Source: Planctomycetota bacterium (lineage in GTDB: Bacteria > Planctomycetota > Planctomycetia > Pirellulales > Thermoguttaceae). From it: a DNA stretch of 64,000 bases. Location of the stretch: assembly GCA_030612765.1 (NCBI GenBank), contig JAUWNG010000002.1:1-64000 (forward strand). The letters are read 5' to 3'. The position numbers and the translations under genes were made by a program. Under the pieces are notes generated by a model that saw only the letters and a list, made by a program, of their open reading frames with translations, ran no database searches and was not told the origin of the DNA. Positions 16,959 to 37,102 of this stretch are shown one piece after another; the stretch's first letter is position 1, and each line of letters starts with the position of its first letter.

Positions 16959-18287
16959 ATGTCGGACGATAAAAACGCGTTGATTCCGCGGGTAGGCGTG
17001 GCCTCGCTTTCCAGCCCTCTGGAAGTCGGCGCGGATCGGGCTCCCCAGGCCGCCGCCGATCTGGCCGGCCTGCTCCGGGCCGCCGGCTGCCAGGTCGTTG
17101 AACTGGGGATGGTCGATCAGCCCGACAAGTCGTTGGCCGCGGGCAGGAAGCTGGCGGAGTCGCGCGCCCAGGCCGTCGCCGTCGTGGCCACAAGCTGGTT
17201 TGAAGACTACCTGGTCCTCGATCTCCTGGAGGAATGTGAACTCCCCATCCTCCTGTGGTCGCTACCCGGCATGGAGACCGGCGCACTGTGCGGCTGCCAA
17301 CAACTGACGGCCTACCTCCGTCAGCTTGACGTGCCGTGTCGTGGCGTTTACGGGCCGCTCGACTCGCCGGAAGGTCGAGCCGACGCAATACAGTTCCTCC
17401 GCGCAGCCGCGCTGCGGGCCAGACTGCGGCGGGCCCGAATCGGTCTGGCCGGACATCGCGTGGCCGGAATGACCGAGGTCTCGGTCAATGAGATCGGTCT
17501 AAAGAAGACCATCGGACCGCGGATCGTCCCTCTCGACCTGCCGCAGTTGCTCGCTCGGGCCAAAGAAATCCCCGACGAGCAAGTGCGGTCGCAATGGCAG
17601 GACATGGTGGCCTGTAGCGGTCGCTGCACAGTGGCGGAAGACGAGGGCCTGGACTGCATGAAAGTTCACGCCGCCGTGAAGGAACTGGTCGACCGGCATC
17701 GCCTCGACGCCCTGACTATCGGCTGTTATCCGCACCTGATGGGTCGCGTCTGCCTGGCTGCGTCGCTCTTGGCGGACGTGGGCGTTCCGCTGGCGTGTGA
17801 AGGGGATGCCAACGGCGCCGTGGGCCAACTCCTGCTGACCTGGTTGACCGGCCGGCCCACGCACAACACCGACTGGCTCGAACCGCTCGAAGACGGCAGT
17901 GTCGTATTCACCCACTGCGGATCGGGATCGTTCAGTCTGGCGGAACGCCGCGAGGACATCGTGCTTGGCCCGGTGCGGCTGATGAACCGCGGCGTCTGTG
18001 CCCTCTTCCCGGCTCGCCCCGGCCCCGTGACCCTGCTGAACCTTCTTCCACGCGACAGCGGCTACCAGGTCGCCGTCCTCGAGGGCGAGGCTCTGTCGAC
18101 CGGCATGGTGTTTCCCGGCAATCCCTTGCGGGTCCGCTTTCCCACGCATACCTCGCGGATCATCGACTGGATTTTCCAAGAGGGGATCGGCCACCACTGG
18201 ATGGCAGGCTATGGACACGTCGGGGGGGAAATTAGACAGTGGGCCCGGCTCTGCGGACCGGATTTGCGACTGGTCGATATTTCGTAG
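16959..18287 (+). CDS. L-fucose/L-arabinose isomerase-like protein
   Basis: A 442-residue protein that fits the FucI/AraA-like fold: an N-terminal Rossmann-like part and a C-terminal part with CEGDANGAVGQ, which resembles the metal-binding glutamate region of fucose isomerases. The family converts aldoses to ketoses, but many members have unknown substrates. GGAG precedes the ATG at 16959. It is the last gene of the 13.1-18.3 kb set. Its TAG stop lies inside a 19-base direct repeat that also carries the stop of the convergent phosphoglycerate kinase gene (second copy). Confidence 0.78.
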   Translation: MSDDKNALIPRVGVASLSSPLEVGADRAPQAAADLAGLLRAAGCQVVELGMVDQPDKSLAAGRKLAESRAQAVAVVATSWFEDYLVLDLLEECELPILLWSLPGMETGALCGCQQLTAYLRQLDVPCRGVYGPLDSPEGRADAIQFLRAAALRARLRRARIGLAGHRVAGMTEVSVNEIGLKKTIGPRIVPLDLPQLLARAKEIPDEQVRSQWQDMVACSGRCTVAEDEGLDCMKVHAAVKELVDRHRLDALTIGCYPHLMGRVCLAASLLADVGVPLACEGDANGAVGQLLLTWLTGRPTHNTDWLEPLEDGSVVFTHCGSGSFSLAERREDIVLGPVRLMNRGVCALFPARPGPVTLLNLLPRDSGYQVAVLEGEALSTGMVFPGNPLRVRFPTHTSRIIDWIFQEGIGHHWMAGYGHVGGEIRQWARLCGPDLRLVDIS

Positions 18288-18295
18288 TCTACTTG

Positions 18296-18494
18296 CGTTC
18301 ACAGGGGACTGTCCCAATTTTCGCGGCGCGAGGGACGTTGCCAGGCGAATTGACTTGACCGCCGCGAAAATGGGACTGTCCCCTTGGCGCCGCGGGAAGG
18401 GGACAGGTCCATGTTTTCGGCCAACGGTTCGTCGGCAAAATGCGTTTTTTCGCCGAAAAATGGACCAGTCCCCGACCGGCCCGTGAACGGTTGC
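18296..18494. mobile_element. Composite palindromic insertion between convergent genes
   Basis: A 199 bp insert flanked by the direct repeat ATATTTCGTAGTCTACTTG at 18277-18295 and 18495-18513. It contains two palindromes: 18302-18384 (GGGGACTGTCCCAATTTTCG type) and 18397-18470 (GGGGACAGGTCC type). The ends CGTTCAC and GTGAACG match the ends of the element at 63222-63346. Confidence 0.85.
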
Positions 18495-18506
18495 ATATTT
18501 CGTAGT

Positions 18507-19922
18507 CTACTTGTGCGGCGCGGGCCCCATACCCTCGGCGGCCATGCTGAGCGCCACCAGGTAAGGCACCGGCTCGCTGCCCAGGGCGCCGAGCACCGTG
18601 CCGCCGGCGGTGAAGCAATAGGCGACCCAGTCCGCCTGGCCGTATTTTTCCAATGCCTTGCCCCCCTCGCCGCCGCCGACGTACACCTTGATGCCGGCGT
18701 CGGTCATGCGTTTCAACTGGGCAATGAACCGCCGCGTTCCTTCCTCGAAGCGCGGATCCTCGAACATGCCGAATACGCCGTTATGAAAGACCACCGCCGC
18801 GGGGCGATCAGACTGGTGCGCGGCGATGAAATCGCTCACCGCCTTCTCGTATAGCTCGCTGGAGGCGGGACCGACGTCGAACTGTTGGTTGCCCGGCCCG
18901 ATAGCTTCCGAAACCCGGCCGTCCTGGAGCACGAAATCGACCGGCATGACGAACTCGATCCCCTTCGCCCGACCATCGGAGATCATCCGTTCGGCCTGTT
19001 CGATCCGCTCTCGGGGAATATAATACGGCTTGTCCCGGTGTTCGGGGTCTTCGGACAGTCCGATGTTGAAATCCGTGCCGTCGAGCCGGGCGGCCGCCTT
19101 TTTCAACGCTACCGCCAGCGAGCCGGCCGCAAGCACCGTGCGAATCGTTCCCCGGTCGATCATCGCTTGCAGATCGTCGAGCTTGTCGATCTTCAATCCG
19201 CTGAATACGACCATCCGCGCGCCCAGACATTCCTTCAAGTGGTCCTCGAATTGCTCCGCCTCGTACTTACCCAGCGCGACCTTTTCCATCGCGGCGGGCA
19301 CGACCACGCTGGAGACGTCGAGGCTGCCGGCCGAAAACGCCTCGTGGACGTACGCCTTGGCCACCTTCTCGGCAAACTGGTTGGCCAGCCGGGCCAACGC
19401 CGCGGCCAGCCGGGCCACGTCGTCCGGCTTGGCCTTCCAAAGCGCCCGCTCGATGTCGTACTTGCGGGTATTTTCCAGGACGATCACGCCGCCGGCCGGG
19501 CATCGGGCTATCGCCTCGGCCGCTTCATCCTTGATTGTCGTGCTCTCGGGATCGAGCCAGTCCGCGATGAACTCGACCCGGCAACCGAGGATTTCACCGA
19601 TCCGCGCGGCGACTTTGTCGAGCGATTTTTGCGGATCGCGGCCGATGTGCCCAAAGACGATCTGCTTCCATCCCCGCCTCCGGCCGAACTCCAGGGTCTC
19701 TTTCATCGACCGCAGGCGGATGTCTCCATCGCCGACGGCCGGCCCCGGTTTGGCGTCCACGTCGCCGCGTACCAGCACGGGCGTACCGGCGGGGAGCTTG
19801 CCCAAACATTCCAGACGCGGGATTTCGGCCAGATACTGTTCCAGGGTCAACTGCGGCTCGTTCGGCTCGCCCCCCAGCAGTTTGCGGCACCAAGCCGCCA
19901 TCGCTTCGGTCGTGATGGTCAT
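18507..19922 (-). CDS. pgk: Divergent phosphoglycerate kinase
   Basis: A 471-residue protein, longer than the usual 390-400. PGK landmarks are recognisable but altered: VRGDVDAKPG where RVDFNVP is normal, IVLENTRKY for the ENxRF strand, HEAFSAG for DAFGxAHR, HNGVFGMFED for WNGPMGVFE, VGGGEGGKAL for GGGDS and FTAGGTVLGAL for STGGGA. The enzyme normally makes ATP from 1,3-bisphosphoglycerate in glycolysis. So many changes at substrate positions raise the possibility of altered activity or a second PGK-like gene elsewhere. It converges with the FucI-like gene; a heptamer array lies next to its promoter side. Confidence 0.75.
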   Translation of the reverse strand: MTITTEAMAAWCRKLLGGEPNEPQLTLEQYLAEIPRLECLGKLPAGTPVLVRGDVDAKPGPAVGDGDIRLRSMKETLEFGRRRGWKQIVFGHIGRDPQKSLDKVAARIGEILGCRVEFIADWLDPESTTIKDEAAEAIARCPAGGVIVLENTRKYDIERALWKAKPDDVARLAAALARLANQFAEKVAKAYVHEAFSAGSLDVSSVVVPAAMEKVALGKYEAEQFEDHLKECLGARMVVFSGLKIDKLDDLQAMIDRGTIRTVLAAGSLAVALKKAAARLDGTDFNIGLSEDPEHRDKPYYIPRERIEQAERMISDGRAKGIEFVMPVDFVLQDGRVSEAIGPGNQQFDVGPASSELYEKAVSDFIAAHQSDRPAAVVFHNGVFGMFEDPRFEEGTRRFIAQLKRMTDAGIKVYVGGGEGGKALEKYGQADWVAYCFTAGGTVLGALGSEPVPYLVALSMAAEGMGPAPHK

Positions 19923-19971: not shown

Positions 19972-20059
19972 AGTTATTGATTGCGAAACCGCAAGCGGCA
20001 CGGCTATACTTTTTCCACTACCCACTACCCACTACTCACTATCCACTATCCACTATCCA

Positions 20060-20063
<4 letters not shown>
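19972..20063. repeat. CCACTAY heptamer array with conserved tail
   Basis: TTGCGAAACCGCAAGCGGC (19981-19999) is followed by seven units of CCACTAC/CCACTAT at 20015-20063. An inverted copy of the same arrangement is at 24866-24983. Simpler arrays lie at 31175 and 31536. Confidence 0.85.
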
Positions 20064-22660
<2,597 letters not shown>

Positions 22661-24168: not shown

Positions 24169-24867
24169 ATGCAACTCAAAACGATTGCCGAAAACGTGGC
24201 TTGCATCCGCGAGCGGATCGCCCGTGCCGCCCAGCGAAGCGGCCGAGCGCCCGAACGGATCACATTGGTGGCGGTGACCAAATATGTTTCGGCCGAGATA
24301 GTCCGCCCGTTGGTCGCGGCCGGCTGTCTGGAACTTGGCGAGAGCCGCCCGCAACAGCTTTGGGAGAAGGCCGCCGCGCTGGCCGATCTGCCGATCCGCT
24401 GGCACATGATCGGCCATCTACAACGGAACAAGGTCCGCCGCACGTTGCCGCTGGTGACGATGATCCAGTCGGTGGACAGCCCACGGTTGCTCGCGGCGAT
24501 CGACGAAGAAGCGAGCGGAAAGGGACCGATCCCCGTTTTATTGGAAGTAAACGTCTCCGGCGAGTCGGCCAAGCATGGTTTCTCGCCCGACGAAATCGAG
24601 CCGCTTCTGGCGGAGTTGCCGAATTACGCGAACGTGTCGGTTCGCGGTTTGATGTGCATGGCCGCGTTGGAGGGCGGGCCGGAGCGAGCCAGGCGCGATT
24701 TCGCCGCACTCCGCCAACTCCGCGAGAACTTGCGACCGAGTTGCCCGCCGGGCGTCACGCTCGACGAGCTTTCGATGGGCATGAGCGGCGACTTCGAGGC
24801 GGCGATCGAAGAAGGGGCGACGATCGTGCGCGTCGGCTCCGCGCTGTTCGAGGGAGTGGATTATTAG
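24169..24867 (+). CDS. yggS: PLP homeostasis protein, YggS/PROSC family
   Basis: A 232-residue single-barrel PLP-binding protein. It shows LVAVTKYVS with the PLP lysine, GESRPQQLWEK, WHMIGHLQRNK, and LSMGMSGDFEAAIEEGATIVRVG, all family landmarks. YggS binds and balances cellular pyridoxal phosphate rather than acting as a racemase. It precedes yggU, an arrangement common in bacteria, although a repeat array separates them here. No strong ribosome site was seen before the ATG. Confidence 0.93.
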   Translation: MQLKTIAENVACIRERIARAAQRSGRAPERITLVAVTKYVSAEIVRPLVAAGCLELGESRPQQLWEKAAALADLPIRWHMIGHLQRNKVRRTLPLVTMIQSVDSPRLLAAIDEEASGKGPIPVLLEVNVSGESAKHGFSPDEIEPLLAELPNYANVSVRGLMCMAALEGGPERARRDFAALRQLRENLRPSCPPGVTLDELSMGMSGDFEAAIEEGATIVRVGSALFEGVDY

Positions 24868-24983
24868 TGGGTAGTGGGGAGTGGATAGTGGGTAGGGGAT
24901 AGTGGGTAGTTGATAGTGGGTAGTGGATAGTGGGTAGTGGGTAGTGAAATAAGTATCTCCGCCGCTTGCGGTTTCGCAACCAT
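24866..24983. repeat. GTAGTGG heptamer array with conserved tail
   Basis: About eleven GTAGTGG/ATAGTGG-like units (24866-24946) are followed by GCCGCTTGCGGTTTCGCAA. This is the inverse of the array at 19972-20063, including the spacer TATACTT/AAGTATC. It starts at the yggS stop codon. Confidence 0.85.
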
Positions 24984-31174: not shown

Positions 31175-31252
31175 TAGGATAGTGGATAGTGGATAGTGGG
31201 TAGTGGGTAGTGGAGAGGGGAGAGAGGAGAGGGGAGAGGGGAGAGTAGCTGC
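31175..31252. repeat. GTAGTGG heptamer and GGGAGA array
   Basis: About five ATAGTGG/GTAGTGG units are followed by GAGGGGAGA units and GTAGCTGCCGCTTGGC. It faces the oppositely oriented array at 31536-31589; a small zinc-ribbon gene lies between them. Confidence 0.8.
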
Positions 31253-31535: not shown

Positions 31536-31589
31536 TCACTACCCACTACCCACTACCCACTCTCCATTATCCACTACCCACTATCCACT
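31536..31589. repeat. CACTACC heptamer array
   Basis: About seven CACTACC/CACTATC units between the zinc-ribbon gene and the MBL hydrolase gene. It is oriented opposite to the array at 31175-31252. Confidence 0.8.
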
Positions 31590-31599
31590 GACCACCACC

Positions 31600-32340
31600 A
31601 TGAAACTAATCCTCCTCGGAACCACCGGCTATCACCCAAACGACCGGCGGCATACGCCGTGCCTGCTGCTGCCGGAGTGCGGAGTGATGCTCGACGCGGG
31701 CACGGCCGTTTATCGAGCGGCGGAATACCTAACCACCGCGGAACTCGACATCTTTATCACCCACGCCCACATCGACCACGTCGTGGGCCTGACGTATCTG
31801 CACAGCGTCAATCGGGTCCATCCGCTGCGGCGGATCACCGTTCACGGGCTACCGGAGAAGTTGCGCGCGGTCGAGGAGCACCTGTTTTCCGAGTCGTTGT
31901 TTCCCACCCGTCCGCCGTTCGAGTGCCGGCCGTTGGCCGAGAGTTTTTCTTTATCCGAGGGTGGAAGGCTGACCCATTTTCCGCTCGAACATCAAGGCGG
32001 CTCGATCGGCTATCGTCTCGACTGGCCCGGGCGTTCGATGGCCTACGTGACCGACACCACGGCCGATTTGGACGCGGCCTACGTGGAAAAGATACGCGGC
32101 GTCGATCTGCTCGTGCATGAGTGTTATTTTTCCGACGATCAAGCCGAATGGTCGCGCAAGGTGGGCCACAGCCACACGACGTCGGTGGCCGAAGTCGCCC
32201 GGTGTGCCGGCGTCGGCCGCTTGGTGTTGGTCCATCTGAATCCGCTCTCGACGGCCGACGACCCGGTGGGCCTGGACGTTGCCCGCTCGATATTCCCCAA
32301 CACCATCCTCGGCGAGGACCGGCTGGAGTTGGAGTTTTAG
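31600..32340 (+). CDS. MBL-fold metallo-hydrolase (RNase Z-like)
   Basis: A 246-residue protein with the metallo-beta-lactamase motif THAHIDH (HxHxDH), a downstream histidine in LEHQGGS, the metal aspartate in YVTDTTAD, and a final GHSHT/HLNP region. The overall order matches the RNase Z/arylsulfatase-like branch of single-domain hydrolases. Substrate is unknown. The ATG follows a heptamer array directly, and the restriction island begins after its stop. Confidence 0.85.
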   Translation: MKLILLGTTGYHPNDRRHTPCLLLPECGVMLDAGTAVYRAAEYLTTAELDIFITHAHIDHVVGLTYLHSVNRVHPLRRITVHGLPEKLRAVEEHLFSESLFPTRPPFECRPLAESFSLSEGGRLTHFPLEHQGGSIGYRLDWPGRSMAYVTDTTADLDAAYVEKIRGVDLLVHECYFSDDQAEWSRKVGHSHTTSVAEVARCAGVGRLVLVHLNPLSTADDPVGLDVARSIFPNTILGEDRLELEF

Positions 32341-32450
32341 CGGCATCAACGTAGGGTGGGTCAACAGATCCCCGCGCGGTGAAAAACCGTACGCCTCCAA
32401 CACGGCGGCGTCCAACGCGGCGTGGGTGTCGTGGTTCGCCGCAATAGTCG

Positions 32451-32861
32451 TCAAGCCAGAAATTTTGCGATTCGCCGACGAAGCCGCTCCCGTTTTTGGG
32501 GCGTCGTTTGACATTCCCAGACGACCAACACATGCCAACCCTCTTGGCGCAGCTTACGGCTGGTTTGCTTGTCGCGTTCCGCGTTGCGGTGCAGCTTCGT
32601 CGTCCAGTAACGGCGTCGCGTGGACGGAACACGGCATCGCGGACACCCATGCAGATGCCAAAAGCAGCCGTGGATGTTGATGATTTTCCGCAAACGCGGA
32701 AAGACCATATCCGGCGTTCCCGGCAAGCCGCGAACGTGCAGACGATAGCGGTATCCCATCGCATGGACCAATCGCCGGACAACCATTTCCGGCATAGTGT
32801 CCTTCCCCTTCACCGCCGCCATGATGCGGGATCGCTCGGATCGGGATACCGTGTCGGTCAT
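32451..32861 (-). CDS. vsr: Very short patch repair endonuclease
   Basis: A 136-residue Vsr nuclease. Vsr nicks beside T:G mismatches made by deamination of 5-methylcytosine and normally works with a C5 methyltransferase. Visible motifs are SRIMAAVKGKDT, PGTPDMVFP with the catalytic aspartate, and HGCFWHLHGC, which binds zinc. It starts 9 bases after the stop of the upstream minus-strand gene and is likely co-transcribed. The methyltransferase it would accompany is broken at 36241-36843. Confidence 0.93.
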   Translation of the reverse strand: MTDTVSRSERSRIMAAVKGKDTMPEMVVRRLVHAMGYRYRLHVRGLPGTPDMVFPRLRKIINIHGCFWHLHGCPRCRVPSTRRRYWTTKLHRNAERDKQTSRKLRQEGWHVLVVWECQTTPQKRERLRRRIAKFLA

Positions 32862-32870
32862 GGCGGGATG

Positions 32871-33506
32871 TCACTCGGGCGGAATATCAACCAGAATCGC
32901 CTTATCACACGCCGCATCAATGACTCGCTGGTTATATCGACGGAATAAGTCAAGTACCACGTGATTGCGAGTGTAGTTGTGGTCGGCCTCCGTGAAGGAT
33001 GTACGCATCGAGATGTAAGTATCGAGAGGAAAAATCAAAGGCATTCGGCGGTCTGTTGATGTCTGCTTTGCCAACGACCGAAGTCGCGGCGTTTTTTTGC
33101 GTATTCGTCGGTTTCCCGTTGGTTGACCTGAGTTCATTGGCTCCTCAAGGGTCAACAACCTATGTTTGCACGCGTTCCGAAGTACCTCACTGTAGCCTGA
33201 AGGCACGATGATGATAATAGTGGATGAAAAGGAACTGAAGTCAACGGCTTTGTCCATTGCAGCGTCGTCTACGTCATGAAAATACACGTAGATGGTTTCA
33301 TGGAGACGCCACAGAACCTCGCCGCTCGTCTCCTCCAATATAAGTGTGAGAGGATGCTTGCATCCTGCCACGAGGAGTTCAAGTGCTGCACTGATTATGT
33401 GTTTGGCAAAATCCCTTTGGAGCGGAGGGGATGGTGCTAGCTCAAACAACTCGGTGACAATTGCGCCAGTAGCATACTGACTCCAATCTGGTCGCATTAC
33501 CAACAT
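32871..33506 (-). CDS. Unknown protein of the restriction island
   Basis: A 211-residue protein upstream of vsr. No nuclease motif can be pointed to with confidence. The C-terminal half has FTEADHNYTRNHVVLDLFRRY and ends DKAILVDIPPE. Proteins in this position beside vsr and dcm are often restriction-associated (some annotated DUF4928), so a restriction role is plausible but unproven. The start is placed at ATG 33506 because GGAG lies 8 bases upstream, inside the operator-like palindrome 33511-33531. Base composition is AT-rich. Confidence 0.65.
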   Translation of the reverse strand: MLVMRPDWSQYATGAIVTELFELAPSPPLQRDFAKHIISAALELLVAGCKHPLTLILEETSGEVLWRLHETIYVYFHDVDDAAMDKAVDFSSFSSTIIIIVPSGYSEVLRNACKHRLLTLEEPMNSGQPTGNRRIRKKTPRLRSLAKQTSTDRRMPLIFPLDTYISMRTSFTEADHNYTRNHVVLDLFRRYNQRVIDAACDKAILVDIPPE

Positions 33507-33510
33507 ATTG

Positions 33511-33531
33511 ATGCTCCTGATTTGGGAGCAT
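33511..33531. promoter_or_regulatory. Operator-like palindrome, box 1
   Basis: ATGCTCC-N6-GGGAGCAT. It includes the GGAG ribosome site of the minus-strand gene starting at 33506. Its layout matches box 2, with centres about 27 bases apart. Confidence 0.7.
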
Positions 33532-33538
33532 TCTAACA

Positions 33539-33557
33539 TGTTCCGATAATGGGAACA
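33539..33557. promoter_or_regulatory. Operator-like palindrome, box 2
   Basis: TGTTCC-N6-GGGAACA. It ends one base before the ATG of the XRE gene at 33558. Same half-site pattern (TGYTCC/GGGARCA) as box 1, as expected for binding sites of the XRE controller between divergent genes. Confidence 0.7.
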
Positions 33558-33842
33558 ATGGAAAAATCGACCCACACAACCGAATACATGGCCCTCCGAG
33601 CAGAACTATTCGCGGCCCGAAAGAACGCCGCCCTGTCCCAACGGGATTTGGCGGCAGTTCTCAAAGTCCCCCATAGTTGGGTGGCAAAGGTCGAGTCCGG
33701 TGAACGTCGGATTGATTTTGTCGAGTTTTGCTGGTTCCTCTCGGCCTGTGGGCTTGATCCAATCGCCGTGACGGAACGCTTGATGCATAAGTGGCGTATG
33801 CCCCGCTCCAAAGTTCGCGGCAAGGAGGGTGGGACAAAGTGA
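33558..33842 (+). CDS. XRE-family HTH regulator (controller-type)
   Basis: A 94-residue single-domain repressor. The helix-turn-helix reads LSQRDLAAVLKVPHSWVAKVESG, the classic Cro/C1 pattern. Small proteins of this type beside restriction genes act as controller (C) proteins that time nuclease expression. Two matching palindromes lie directly upstream. ATG 33549 is also possible but lies inside box 2. The stop overlaps the GTG start of the HNH gene (GTGA), indicating coupled translation. Confidence 0.82.
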   Translation: MEKSTHTTEYMALRAELFAARKNAALSQRDLAAVLKVPHSWVAKVESGERRIDFVEFCWFLSACGLDPIAVTERLMHKWRMPRSKVRGKEGGTK

Positions 33843-34441
33843 CCGCCACTGACGACGATTTTAGGCGCAAGATGCTGGCGACGGCCTTTCGGATGCCATC
33901 GTTCCAAACGATGGTGACTCGCAAATCAAGCATCACCAATGCTTTTGTGAATTCGGTGATTCCGGTTATTCCACCAACCCTCGACGAAATCGAGGAAGCG
34001 CTGTCCATACTCGGTATGGATCCGTCCAATGTGCGATGCGCGTATTGCGGGGACAAAAAATCAGAGTGGGACCATCTGCGGCCGTTGGTATTAAAACATC
34101 GACCAACCGGCTTCATTTCCGAGATTGCCAACCTTGTGCCGTCTTGCGGCAAGTGTAACCAAAGCAAGGGCAATAAGCCTTGGCGTACTTGGATGCAAAG
34201 TAGCAAGGGACTCTCGCCAAGTGCCCGTGGCATTGCTGATGTTGCAACTCGGATCACCCGCCTCGACAACTACGAAAAATGGCGGTCCCCTACAATCATT
34301 GATTTTGAAGATGTTCTAGGACGTGATGCGTGGGAACAGTATTGGTTGCTCTGGAAAAATGTCAATGACGAGTTGCGCAATTGCCAGGAAGTTGCTGATT
34401 CCATACGCGATAAGATAATTGAGGCATTGAGAAGCAAATAG
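33839..34441 (+). CDS. HNH endonuclease
   Basis: A 200-residue protein with an HNH zinc-finger nuclease domain in the middle: CAYCG, SEWDHLRPL (the catalytic His), EIANLVPSC and GKCNQSKGNK. The GTG at 33839 overlaps the XRE stop and has AAGGAGGG about 9 bases upstream, so the two genes form one unit. It is likely the restriction nuclease controlled by the XRE protein; its recognition site cannot be read from sequence. Confidence 0.85.
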   Translation: MTATDDDFRRKMLATAFRMPSFQTMVTRKSSITNAFVNSVIPVIPPTLDEIEEALSILGMDPSNVRCAYCGDKKSEWDHLRPLVLKHRPTGFISEIANLVPSCGKCNQSKGNKPWRTWMQSSKGLSPSARGIADVATRITRLDNYEKWRSPTIIDFEDVLGRDAWEQYWLLWKNVNDELRNCQEVADSIRDKIIEALRSK

Positions 34442-34480
34442 TCACAGTGAACATTCTACAATAATTAAGGTCGTAAAATT

Positions 34481-36187
34481 ATGTGTGCTAAGAATATCCG
34501 AACAGACCTGGATCGTATTGATATTAAGCTGCGCGGGATTGGTGATGCCATGAAGTCGTCCTGGCTTCAGGTGCCGCCATACCAGAGAGACTACGCATGG
34601 GAAAAGGATCAAGTAGAAGAACTTCTGGGTGACCTTGCGGAAGCCATTCGTGCTAATGAGCCCGAATACTTCTTAGGATCCATCGTCGTCTCGTCTGGAA
34701 CCTCGGAACGACTTCACGTGACTGATGGCCAACAGCGGTTGGCCACGGTGAGCATCATCATTGCGGCAATTCGAAATTATTTTTTTGCGAACGGAGAAAC
34801 GGAGTTGGCAACAGACTTAGAGAAGGAATTCCTGCTAAGTCGCCACCGCCGAACCCGGGAGCCGATTGCCCGACTTCACCTGAACACTCATGACAATGAC
34901 TACTACGATTTGGCAGTTCTGAGAAGGCCAGGCATTAAGGGGCCACCAACACCAGACGCGAGTTCGCACAAGAGGCTGCAGAAAGCTGTCGTGACCATAT
35001 CGGATTACATACAGAATCTCGCCAAGGTAAACCCCAAGACACCCGTGGACACGCTGCATGATTGGGTTGACTATCTTGAAAAACAGTGCAAGGTTATTTG
35101 GGTTACAGTCCCCGACGAGGGAAACGCTTTTACGATCTTCGAGACGCTCAATGATCGCGGGCTGGATTTGGCCATTTCGGACCTTCTGAAAAACTTTCTG
35201 TTTCAAAAAGCGGGAAGCCGTCTTGCGGAAGCGCAAGATCACTGGACCACAATGACTGGTATATTGGAGGCAACGAGTGAAGACGAGGTGCTAGTAACAT
35301 ATTTGCGACATTACTGGTCCTCAGTCCAAGGGCTTACTAGAGAACGAGATCTGTATAAGCGTGTCAAGCGGGGCGTGACCACAATTTCGGGAGCGGTAGA
35401 CCTTACGCGAGATTTAACTTCAAGTGCGGCCCGATACGCAGCTCTTTCCAACACCAGCCACGAGTTGTGGCGCCAATATGGTCCAACTACGCAAGGTCAT
35501 ATTGCGACCCTTAACCTGCTACGCATGATCCAGATGCGACCACTCCTTTTAGCAATCTTGGACGTATTTATCACGGCTGATGCAAAAAAGGCGATCAAGC
35601 TCTTGGTTGACTGCGCCGTTCGGATACTGATTGTTGGGGCTCGTGGTGGTAAAGTGGAGGTTGCATATTGTGACGCAGCTAAGAATATCAGAAATCAATC
35701 AGTGAAGAAAGCTTCGCAACTTCGCAAGCAGTTGGCCCAGATATTTCCCGCAGACGCCGCGTTCAGGGAGGAATTCGCCGTTGCCACTGTGTCAAAGACC
35801 TATCTTGTGAGATACTATCTGCGAGCTTTGGAGCAAGCGGCGAATAATAAGTCGCAACCGGAATTCGTGCCGAATCCAAATGTCGAGGACATCAATCTTG
35901 AGCATGTGATTCCTTTGCGCCCTGGAAGCAACTGGAATCATCTCAGTGACGACGTATGCCAGTCCCTGTACCGACGAATCGGCAACATGGCACTCCTGCA
36001 AAGCGATGCTAATTCAACCGCCGGGAACGCATCTTTTGCAGAAAAGAAGCAAGCATTGGCACAATCCGAGTACACATTGACAAAAAACATTGCTAAAGAG
36101 CCCTCGTGGACAGCGGACGAAGTAGCGAGCAGACAGAAAAAGCTTGCAGACCTAGCTGTTAAAACATGGTCGGGAAAGTTTTCTTAA
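34481..36187 (+). CDS. DUF262/DUF1524 protein (GmrSD-like nuclease)
   Basis: A 568-residue protein. The N-terminal DUF262 domain has PPYQRDYAWEKDQ and DGQQRLATV, the ParB/sulfiredoxin-like NTP-binding signature. The C-terminal DUF1524 domain has LEHVIPLRPG, RIGNMALL and NSTAGNASF, forming a His-Asn-Asn nuclease site. This pair is the design of GmrSD type IV restriction enzymes, which cut modified phage DNA, and of related phage-defence proteins. It begins 39 bases after the HNH gene. AAGG near the start is a weak ribosome site. Composition is AT-rich like the rest of the island. Confidence 0.87.
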   Translation: MCAKNIRTDLDRIDIKLRGIGDAMKSSWLQVPPYQRDYAWEKDQVEELLGDLAEAIRANEPEYFLGSIVVSSGTSERLHVTDGQQRLATVSIIIAAIRNYFFANGETELATDLEKEFLLSRHRRTREPIARLHLNTHDNDYYDLAVLRRPGIKGPPTPDASSHKRLQKAVVTISDYIQNLAKVNPKTPVDTLHDWVDYLEKQCKVIWVTVPDEGNAFTIFETLNDRGLDLAISDLLKNFLFQKAGSRLAEAQDHWTTMTGILEATSEDEVLVTYLRHYWSSVQGLTRERDLYKRVKRGVTTISGAVDLTRDLTSSAARYAALSNTSHELWRQYGPTTQGHIATLNLLRMIQMRPLLLAILDVFITADAKKAIKLLVDCAVRILIVGARGGKVEVAYCDAAKNIRNQSVKKASQLRKQLAQIFPADAAFREEFAVATVSKTYLVRYYLRALEQAANNKSQPEFVPNPNVEDINLEHVIPLRPGSNWNHLSDDVCQSLYRRIGNMALLQSDANSTAGNASFAEKKQALAQSEYTLTKNIAKEPSWTADEVASRQKKLADLAVKTWSGKFS

Positions 36188-36240
36188 TTCCATACGCTGG
36201 TCAATCGCAACCATGTTCCGCTAATTGCAGACAGACAGTG

Positions 36241-36843
36241 TTAAAGGCCGCATGTCGGCATGTCGTCCACCTTGAGCGTATGAATGTCGCCGACTACGAG
36301 GTGATTGTCTTTCGGCCAATTGTGCCGATACATCTCCGCTTTGTTGGGGTCGATGTCGTTGGCGAAAGCGACGCGGAAACCCTGTTTTTCCAACGCCAGA
36401 CGCACCAAACCGATACCCGCGAAAAACTCGCCGACCGCGAACGCCGACGAACGCTCGGCGGATCGGCGTTCGATGCAAAGGCGATATTTGCGCGTTCCCA
36501 GCCGTTCCAGGGCAAGAATATCGCCGTCCTCAACATGATGGCGCCGATAGAATCGTCCGATCCATTTTCGTTCGCGAAAATGGCTGCGCCGCCGACCGGT
36601 TTTTTTGTCGGTGGGGATGTCGGTGCGAATCGTTTCGTTCAGTCCGTCGAGAAACACCTCGAACTCGCCGCCGCCGTTTTTCGCCGAACGCCGGGACGGG
36701 CCGATGCAATCGGGCGGAAAAAAATCGTAATGTCCGTTGACATACAGATGGCTGTTCCGCAGATTTCCCGCCGTCACGCGAAGCAATCGTTTATTATCTC
36801 CAATCGTGCCGCTCACGGCCCCTGGCCCTCCCGGTGGCAACAT
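36241..36843 (-). pseudogene. C5 cytosine methyltransferase, 3' truncated
   Basis: This 200-residue frame keeps only the start of a DNA cytosine methyltransferase. Residues 30-120 resemble a B3/EcoRII-N-type DNA-binding domain (GEFEVFLDGLNETIRTD). Then come motif I (GEFFAGIGLVRLALE), motif II (ANDIDP) and GDIHTL. The protein stops right after VDDMPTCGL, just before motif IV with the catalytic Cys (PCQ in the family). The remaining 200-plus residues are absent from the window. The DUF262 gene ends 53 bases away. The gene cannot encode an active methylase. Confidence 0.85.
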
Positions 36844-36918
36844 CGCTATCCATGTCGAACTCCGTACATGCTAATTAGCGGCGTCCCCGCCGTCAATCCG
36901 GGAGAACCCGCAAAGTAC

Positions 36919-37015
36919 CGTAGGGCGCGTCCGCGACACACCTAAATTCCAACTCTGGAAAGCCTGACCTGTTTGTCCGTGGTGTATCGAGGACACACCC
37001 TACGGATTACTGTGG
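36919..37015. repeat. CCGTAGGG inverted repeat
   Basis: CCGTAGGGCGCGTCCGCGAC on the left, GGACACACCCTACGG on the right, with ACACACC/GGTGTAT inside. Likely another dispersed palindrome. Confidence 0.65.
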
Positions 37016-37102
37016 TCAACCGATGGCCTCTATTTTTGCGCTAACTTTCCAGAAAAGCATCCAAACCGGTTTTCGCGCGCTCAATTGGTTTTTCGGGGCC
37101 AA

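Follow-up and report, generated by a model that had tools for sequence, protein, structure and literature searches.

We analysed a 64,000-nucleotide stretch of a Planctomycetota bacterium of the Thermoguttaceae (assembly GCA_030612765.1, contig JAUWNG010000002.1, positions 1 to 64,000; hereafter the window), which is contig C25 of a genome bin (G000) that is 87.6% complete and comprises 228 contigs, and focused on an island of ~4.7 kb (32360..37030) that lies between a metallo-beta-lactamase-fold gene and dnaA and holds what is probably the remnant of a type II restriction-modification (R-M) operon with other nuclease genes in its middle. The minus strand carries a C5-methyltransferase (C5 MTase) fragment, an open reading frame (ORF) of 211 codons and vsr, and the plus strand, between the MTase fragment and this ORF, carries genes for an XRE-family controller, an HNH nuclease and a DUF262/DUF1524 protein, the last placed between the HNH gene and the MTase stump. 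A sequence-only reading had described these six genes, and all were recovered on the strands it gave, with profile matches and the expected motifs in vsr, HNH and DUF262. In a congener (G002), the flanks are ~95% identical by BLASTN (window 31537-32359 and 37031 onward align), and a different 2.4-kb insert occupies the site between the same neighbours, which indicates that the block is a genuine island, specific to the strain, and that the site is a hot spot.

The truncated C5 MTase gene (36241..36816, minus strand; start at 36843 or 36816) encodes an N-terminal B3-like region and the motif I region, and only positions 2-60 of the 324 in PF00145 are matched. A search of 296 genomes of the order recovered full-length relatives, and the fragment is 68-69% identical to residues 1-190 of the 489-aa intact methylase of genome G111. 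Where the intact protein reads ...GDIHAIPTDNVPMCSLFTASFPCNDLS, the window reads ...GDIHTLKVDDMPTCGL-stop, placing the end of the fragment, by comparison with intact homologues, ~7 residues before the catalytic Cys. The earlier reading that the only MTase stops short of its catalytic motif was correct, with the amendment that the motif of this family is FPCN, not FPCQ. A search of the window for the C-terminal remainder found none, and the rest of the bin yielded no intact C5 MTase. Private changes in the stump and the intact gene, counted with four outgroups, numbered 16/12, 20/12, 21/6 and 13/16; since these counts are roughly equal, either the break happened fairly recently or constraint still acts on the stump.

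Intact operons, found in G111, G028, G139, G050 and others, with locus L120 as another example, have the order MTase (~490-510 aa), a protein of ~310-350 aa, then vsr. The intact cluster to be sought among relatives proved to be a three-gene C5-MTase/DUF4928/Vsr operon. Its middle protein is DUF4928 (PF16280; the PADLOC type II restriction endonuclease model), for which we found one passing mention in the literature; the exception is G287, where the middle protein is of HNH type, and a few loci with an intact MTase have no middle protein. Because the intact operons carry DUF4928 where the island has the HNH gene, the original nuclease of the operon was DUF4928 and not the HNH protein of the window. 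The island shares with these operons (G111, L120) an intact Vsr, the N-terminal part of the methylase, a probable C-terminal half of the restriction enzyme, and gene order and strand; it differs in that the methylase is cut before its catalytic motif, the restriction enzyme has lost its N-terminal half, and the two are separated by foreign nuclease genes. What is missing from the window is the C-terminal part of the MTase together with the N-terminal half of DUF4928, so that neither an intact MTase nor a full-length restriction enzyme is present.

The vsr gene (32451..32861, minus strand), the V of the ancestral operon, encodes a T:G mismatch endonuclease (TIGR00632, E = 1.2e-41; PF03852) that is intact by motif, with LPGTPD and GCFWHLH both present. 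It shares 75% identity with its counterpart in the intact G111 operon, with which it clusters in a tree (support 86/81), and its nonsynonymous and synonymous divergences are dN 0.19 and dS 1.7. The concern that a Vsr without its methylase would be dangerous is a reasonable one with experimental precedent: in Caulobacter, a Vsr-like protein triggers the SOS response when cytosine methylation is absent, and fitness drops (PMC12907096). Genes for vsr adjoining truncated methylases are also known in Neisseria (PMC12907096). The island resembles these two cases in having a vsr without an intact adjacent methylase, and differs in that two further nucleases are linked to it and the bin yielded no intact C5 methylase. 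Vsr may have been kept intact either for remaining T:G mismatches or as a recruit of the new module.

The 211-aa protein (32871..33506, minus strand; probable start 33506) is probably the surviving C-terminal half of DUF4928, diverged and stripped of its active-site residues, with a PD-(D/E)XK fold, an assignment that sequence and model comparison leave well supported but unproven. Shuffle tests gave Z values of 8.5 to the divergent gene of locus L022 and 6.0 to the DUF4928 of G028 (R_G028), colinear at the C-terminus. Its AlphaFold model (predicted local distance difference test score, pLDDT, 86) has a core of helix, three strands, helix and strand, and VIA-align placed EcoT38I on top, aligning 164 residues with its residues 168-350 at Z 10.0; BspD6I, MspJI and BglII came next. 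The active-site Asp is present in 11 of 11 full-length DUF4928 proteins and in one of seven cassette-linked copies, and is absent in the window; the EcoT38I/DUF4928-type fold is thus recovered by VIA-align without the conserved Asp, and we read the protein as a putative dead restriction-enzyme domain. Several points speak against this assignment. The protein has no Pfam match, hhalign gave a probability of 12% (weak, with homology at the detection limit), and the AlphaFold model was built on an alignment that already included DUF4928. Foldseek alone returned no significant match for the model, and no close relative was found in 60 related genomes or in plasmids. A 184-aa gene in locus L011, tried as a further DUF4928 C-terminal half, was rejected as a member of another divergent-gene family. 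This family, unnamed and recognisable by PTYNYxLY...LPEFG..., is encoded divergently from XRE-HNH at about five loci of planctomycetes (L011:9218-9772, L014:2575-3039, L027:7279-7674, and upstream of XRE in L021 and L012), where it occupies the place that the DUF4928 C-terminal half has in others; no Pfam match was obtained for the L011 or L027 members.

The XRE-family controller (33558..33842, plus strand; PF13560, E = 2e-9) has its likely true start at 33558, a start conserved in homologues (M-x-K-S-x-H), and the HNH gene (33839..34441, plus strand; PF01844, E = 2.4e-6; likely GTG start at 33839) overlaps its stop by 4 bp, so that translation of the nuclease is probably coupled to that of the controller. 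Upstream of the XRE gene lies a sigma-70-like promoter (TTGGGA at 33522-33527, a 17-bp spacer and GATAAT at 33545-33550), overlapped by two predicted palindromic operators: the first (33513-33529) covers TTGGGA, the second (33540-33556) covers GATAAT, and the ATG of XRE follows directly, from which the mRNA would probably be leaderless. The ~50 bp 5' of XRE are common to 14 planctomycete loci, with two palindromes of consensus GCTCCNATTTTGGGAGC and GCTCCNATAATCGGAGC, the second of which is badly preserved in both L028 and L029; the chance expectation for the second pattern is 0.03 occurrences in the window. We infer from this arrangement that XRE represses its own gene through the palindromes, which probably serve both divergent genes. 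As in controller-protein R-M systems, a small XRE gene lies upstream of and overlaps a nuclease gene and has palindromic operators on its own promoter, as far as sequence can tell; the island differs in that its system contains no cognate methylase, none in the island being intact.

Overlapping genes, a repressor in first position and strong predicted autoregulatory palindromes would also suit a toxin-antitoxin-like or selfish addiction pair, with HNH as toxin and XRE as repressor or antitoxin, stabilised where an R-M addiction module had sat. We consider this unlikely, as HNH homologues in other phyla do without such an XRE, which therefore seems not to be needed, and as the partner genes vary; a nuclease of a type II toxin-antitoxin system would always be paired with its antitoxin, and this one is not.

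The HNH protein is intact by motif, carrying the CxxC...WDH...N...CxxCN that is invariant in 50 homologues, and its AlphaFold model (pLDDT 95) comprises a Cys4 HNH domain and a long C-terminal helix. The HNH domain resembles its equivalents in Cas9, PacI and the Gme nicking enzyme (fold search, Z 4-6), and fold searches with the model found no relative for the region outside it. A scan of 84,980 species genomes yielded 173 relatives; among the 80 retained, many that are 47-57% identical belong to Gammaproteobacteria, Betaproteobacteria, Actinobacteria and Firmicutes. On these sequences, the family is unnamed, mostly stand-alone and spread over many phyla. We found no gene like the window XRE adjoining the homologues in other phyla, a C5 MTase lay within 8 kb of HNH in only ~6 of 69 non-planctomycete loci, and no neighbour recurred: of 113 proteins encoded around solitary HNH genes, none belonged to a family seen on more than three occasions. 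Partnership of HNH with the MTase was rejected, given that intact operons have DUF4928 in that place and HNH is mostly solitary elsewhere, and the same findings leave the proposal that the HNH nuclease had lost its protection unsupported. On plasmids, HNH homologues were found in two Hymenobacter records only (~36% identity; L018:5965-6636 and L019:5959-6630), where they lie within heavy-metal efflux operons; phage matches were partial, mostly to the HNH motif alone. Among genomes with XRE-HNH, mostly draft bins, five (G191 and G308-G311) have no intact C5 MTase and others have several.

The same cut-and-replaced arrangement was found in other planctomycetes. In L013, MTase residues 110-227, XRE, HNH, DUF4928 residues 120-310 and vsr follow one another, all on one strand; L025 has MTase residues 31-70, an inverted XRE-HNH, DUF4928 residues 130-313 and a vsr remnant; and L011 has MTase residues 1-64, an inverted XRE-HNH, another gene and vsr. 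L012 and L028 retain DUF4928 residues 133-316 and vsr, and L023 retains vsr, while no vsr lies in the stretch examined of L014, L021, L022, L024, L026, L027 and L029. The relative position of the window DUF262 gene is taken by a YhcG/DUF1016 nuclease gene in L022 and by an AAA/DUF4143 gene in L024. In a tree of 86 HNH proteins, the XRE-paired group needs two changes and is compatible with one origin, whereas a single clade was rejected for the cassette-linked vsr genes (approximately unbiased (AU) test, P = 0.0007) and for the cassette-linked DUF4928 C-terminal halves (AU P = 4e-9 with four proteins, 0.0017 with seven). A single event followed by descent does not fit; since XRE-HNH has about one origin but its vsr and DUF4928 neighbours do not, similar replacements were probably made several times, a conclusion that is well supported but unproven. 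The number of events is uncertain because the vsr and DUF4928 C-terminal proteins are short and fast-evolving.

The recurrent position inside M-R-V operons, in both orientations, and the window break just before the catalytic motif raise the question of a homing-type endonuclease that copies itself into C5 methylase genes by targeting their conserved catalytic stretch. We regard this as highly improbable: the break points differ (methylase residue ~64, 70, 190 and 227), and parts of M and R have been deleted, where homing would leave a single clean insertion in a gene that is otherwise whole; many HNH copies also lie elsewhere. Ordinary decay, in which a defunct R-M system, sited at a defence hot spot by dnaA, collected unrelated defence genes before its old vsr and MTase pieces were lost, draws on the different insert of the congener and on the similar rates of the methylase fragment and its intact homologue, as would be expected of a recent break. 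We think it rather unlikely, as the same arrangement recurs in other families, 7 of the 14 planctomycete loci have vsr, or a remnant of it, within ~2 kb of XRE-HNH, and the genes for Vsr, HNH and XRE are both open and conserved.

A second and different case of a beheaded methylase occurs in the same genome (contig C100, ~17,000-19,800; L015:11011-13792). Here the MTase fragment breaks off at motif I; with it are an unrelated HNH gene (PADLOC HNH, E = 3e-84), the C-terminal portion of an HNH enzyme of G287 type, and vsr, which is intact. At L129:9038-10894, another methylase remnant, an internal MTase fragment, stands next to yet another gene, for a NO VEIN C-terminal-type protein, along with an incomplete vsr.

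The remaining plus-strand gene (34481..36187) encodes a single-chain GmrSD-like protein in which DUF262 (PF03235, E = 9e-35) and DUF1524 (PF07510, E = 3e-22) are joined, with DGQQR and LEHVIP motifs in the translation and a nearly full-length match to the PADLOC HEC-06 profile (E = 7e-189). Its joined domains, DGQQR motif and profile match are shared with GmrSD/BrxU type IV enzymes and HEC-06, from which it differs in sitting in a broken methylase operon behind XRE-HNH. GmrSD and BrxU, the family members that have been studied, cleave DNA carrying modified cytosines (PMC10952713), and by analogy the island protein is presumptively a modification-dependent nuclease. A cell without a C5 methylase could safely hold such an enzyme, which fits the dead methylase and implies no cause. 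The suggestion that a deletion had made a modification system modification-dependent stands in so far as the MTase is dead and the DUF262/DUF1524 family has modification-dependent members; it does not stand as a simple deletion, as most of M and half of R have been replaced by nuclease genes.

Sequence comparison demonstrates that the methylase is truncated, that its relatives include intact three-gene operons, that other planctomycetes share the cut-and-replaced arrangement, and that HNH nucleases of this family usually occur without a methylase. With reasonable though not high confidence, we read the island as the remnant of a type II R-M operon whose middle was replaced by a methylase-independent XRE-HNH cassette and a GmrSD-like gene, a replacement recurring in Planctomycetota; the island anatomy and the recurrence are well supported. 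Several observations weigh against this. Half of the 14 planctomycete loci have no vsr nearby, and an MTase piece is kept in only four of them, the only places where displacement of M is seen directly; several loci carrying the XRE-HNH pair have another divergent gene in place of the DUF4928 C-terminal half; the vsr and DUF4928 trees were built from short proteins that evolve fast, and the DUF4928 tree has long branches; and in other genomes an HNH homologue lies next to a C5 MTase (L163), ~3 kb from an MTase and vsr (L064), or near a C5 MTase (L080). The bin also contains N6/N4 MTases (seven PF01555 and several PF02384 matches), which could protect against HNH. HNH might be an ordinary type II enzyme with cognate protection from an N6/N4 methylase elsewhere in the genome, which we judge quite improbable, as the lack of a recurring methylase neighbour across dozens of genomes would be unusual for type II enzymes.

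If the replacement reading holds, XRE would bind the two palindromes and keep its own promoter nearly silent, so that little HNH would be made; upon failure of repression (a new host, infection or damage), HNH might cut or nick DNA, and the DUF262 protein might attack invading DNA with modified cytosines, tolerated by the host since its own C5 methylase is dead. A stronger version, which we judge rather unlikely, is that a mobile XRE-HNH cassette of an uncharacterised stand-alone nuclease family repeatedly takes over C5 R-M operons, destroys the methylase and keeps the dead restriction-enzyme domain and Vsr as functioning partners, yielding a new type of methylase-free, self-limiting defence module. 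The replacement reading would describe a route by which an R-M operon may stop modifying DNA without disappearing, the methylase being excised, seemingly on more than one occasion, with Vsr and one half of the restriction enzyme persisting beside new nucleases. It makes testable the targets of a widespread unnamed HNH family without a methylase, the re-use of Vsr and of a dead restriction-enzyme domain, and the loss of C5 methylation as what lets a GmrSD-like enzyme live in a cell.

Two further features concern the surroundings of the island. The insert of the congener holds one 705-codon ORF (L140:3799-5916), in which an AraC-type helix-turn-helix and a TnsA-like nuclease domain occur together with several zinc ribbons and which is possibly a homing-type element adjoining dnaA. 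Short related repeats of the CCACTACCCACT type lie between genes at window positions 20015-20065, 24866-24946, 31177-31221 and 31550-31586, and are found in the congener too.

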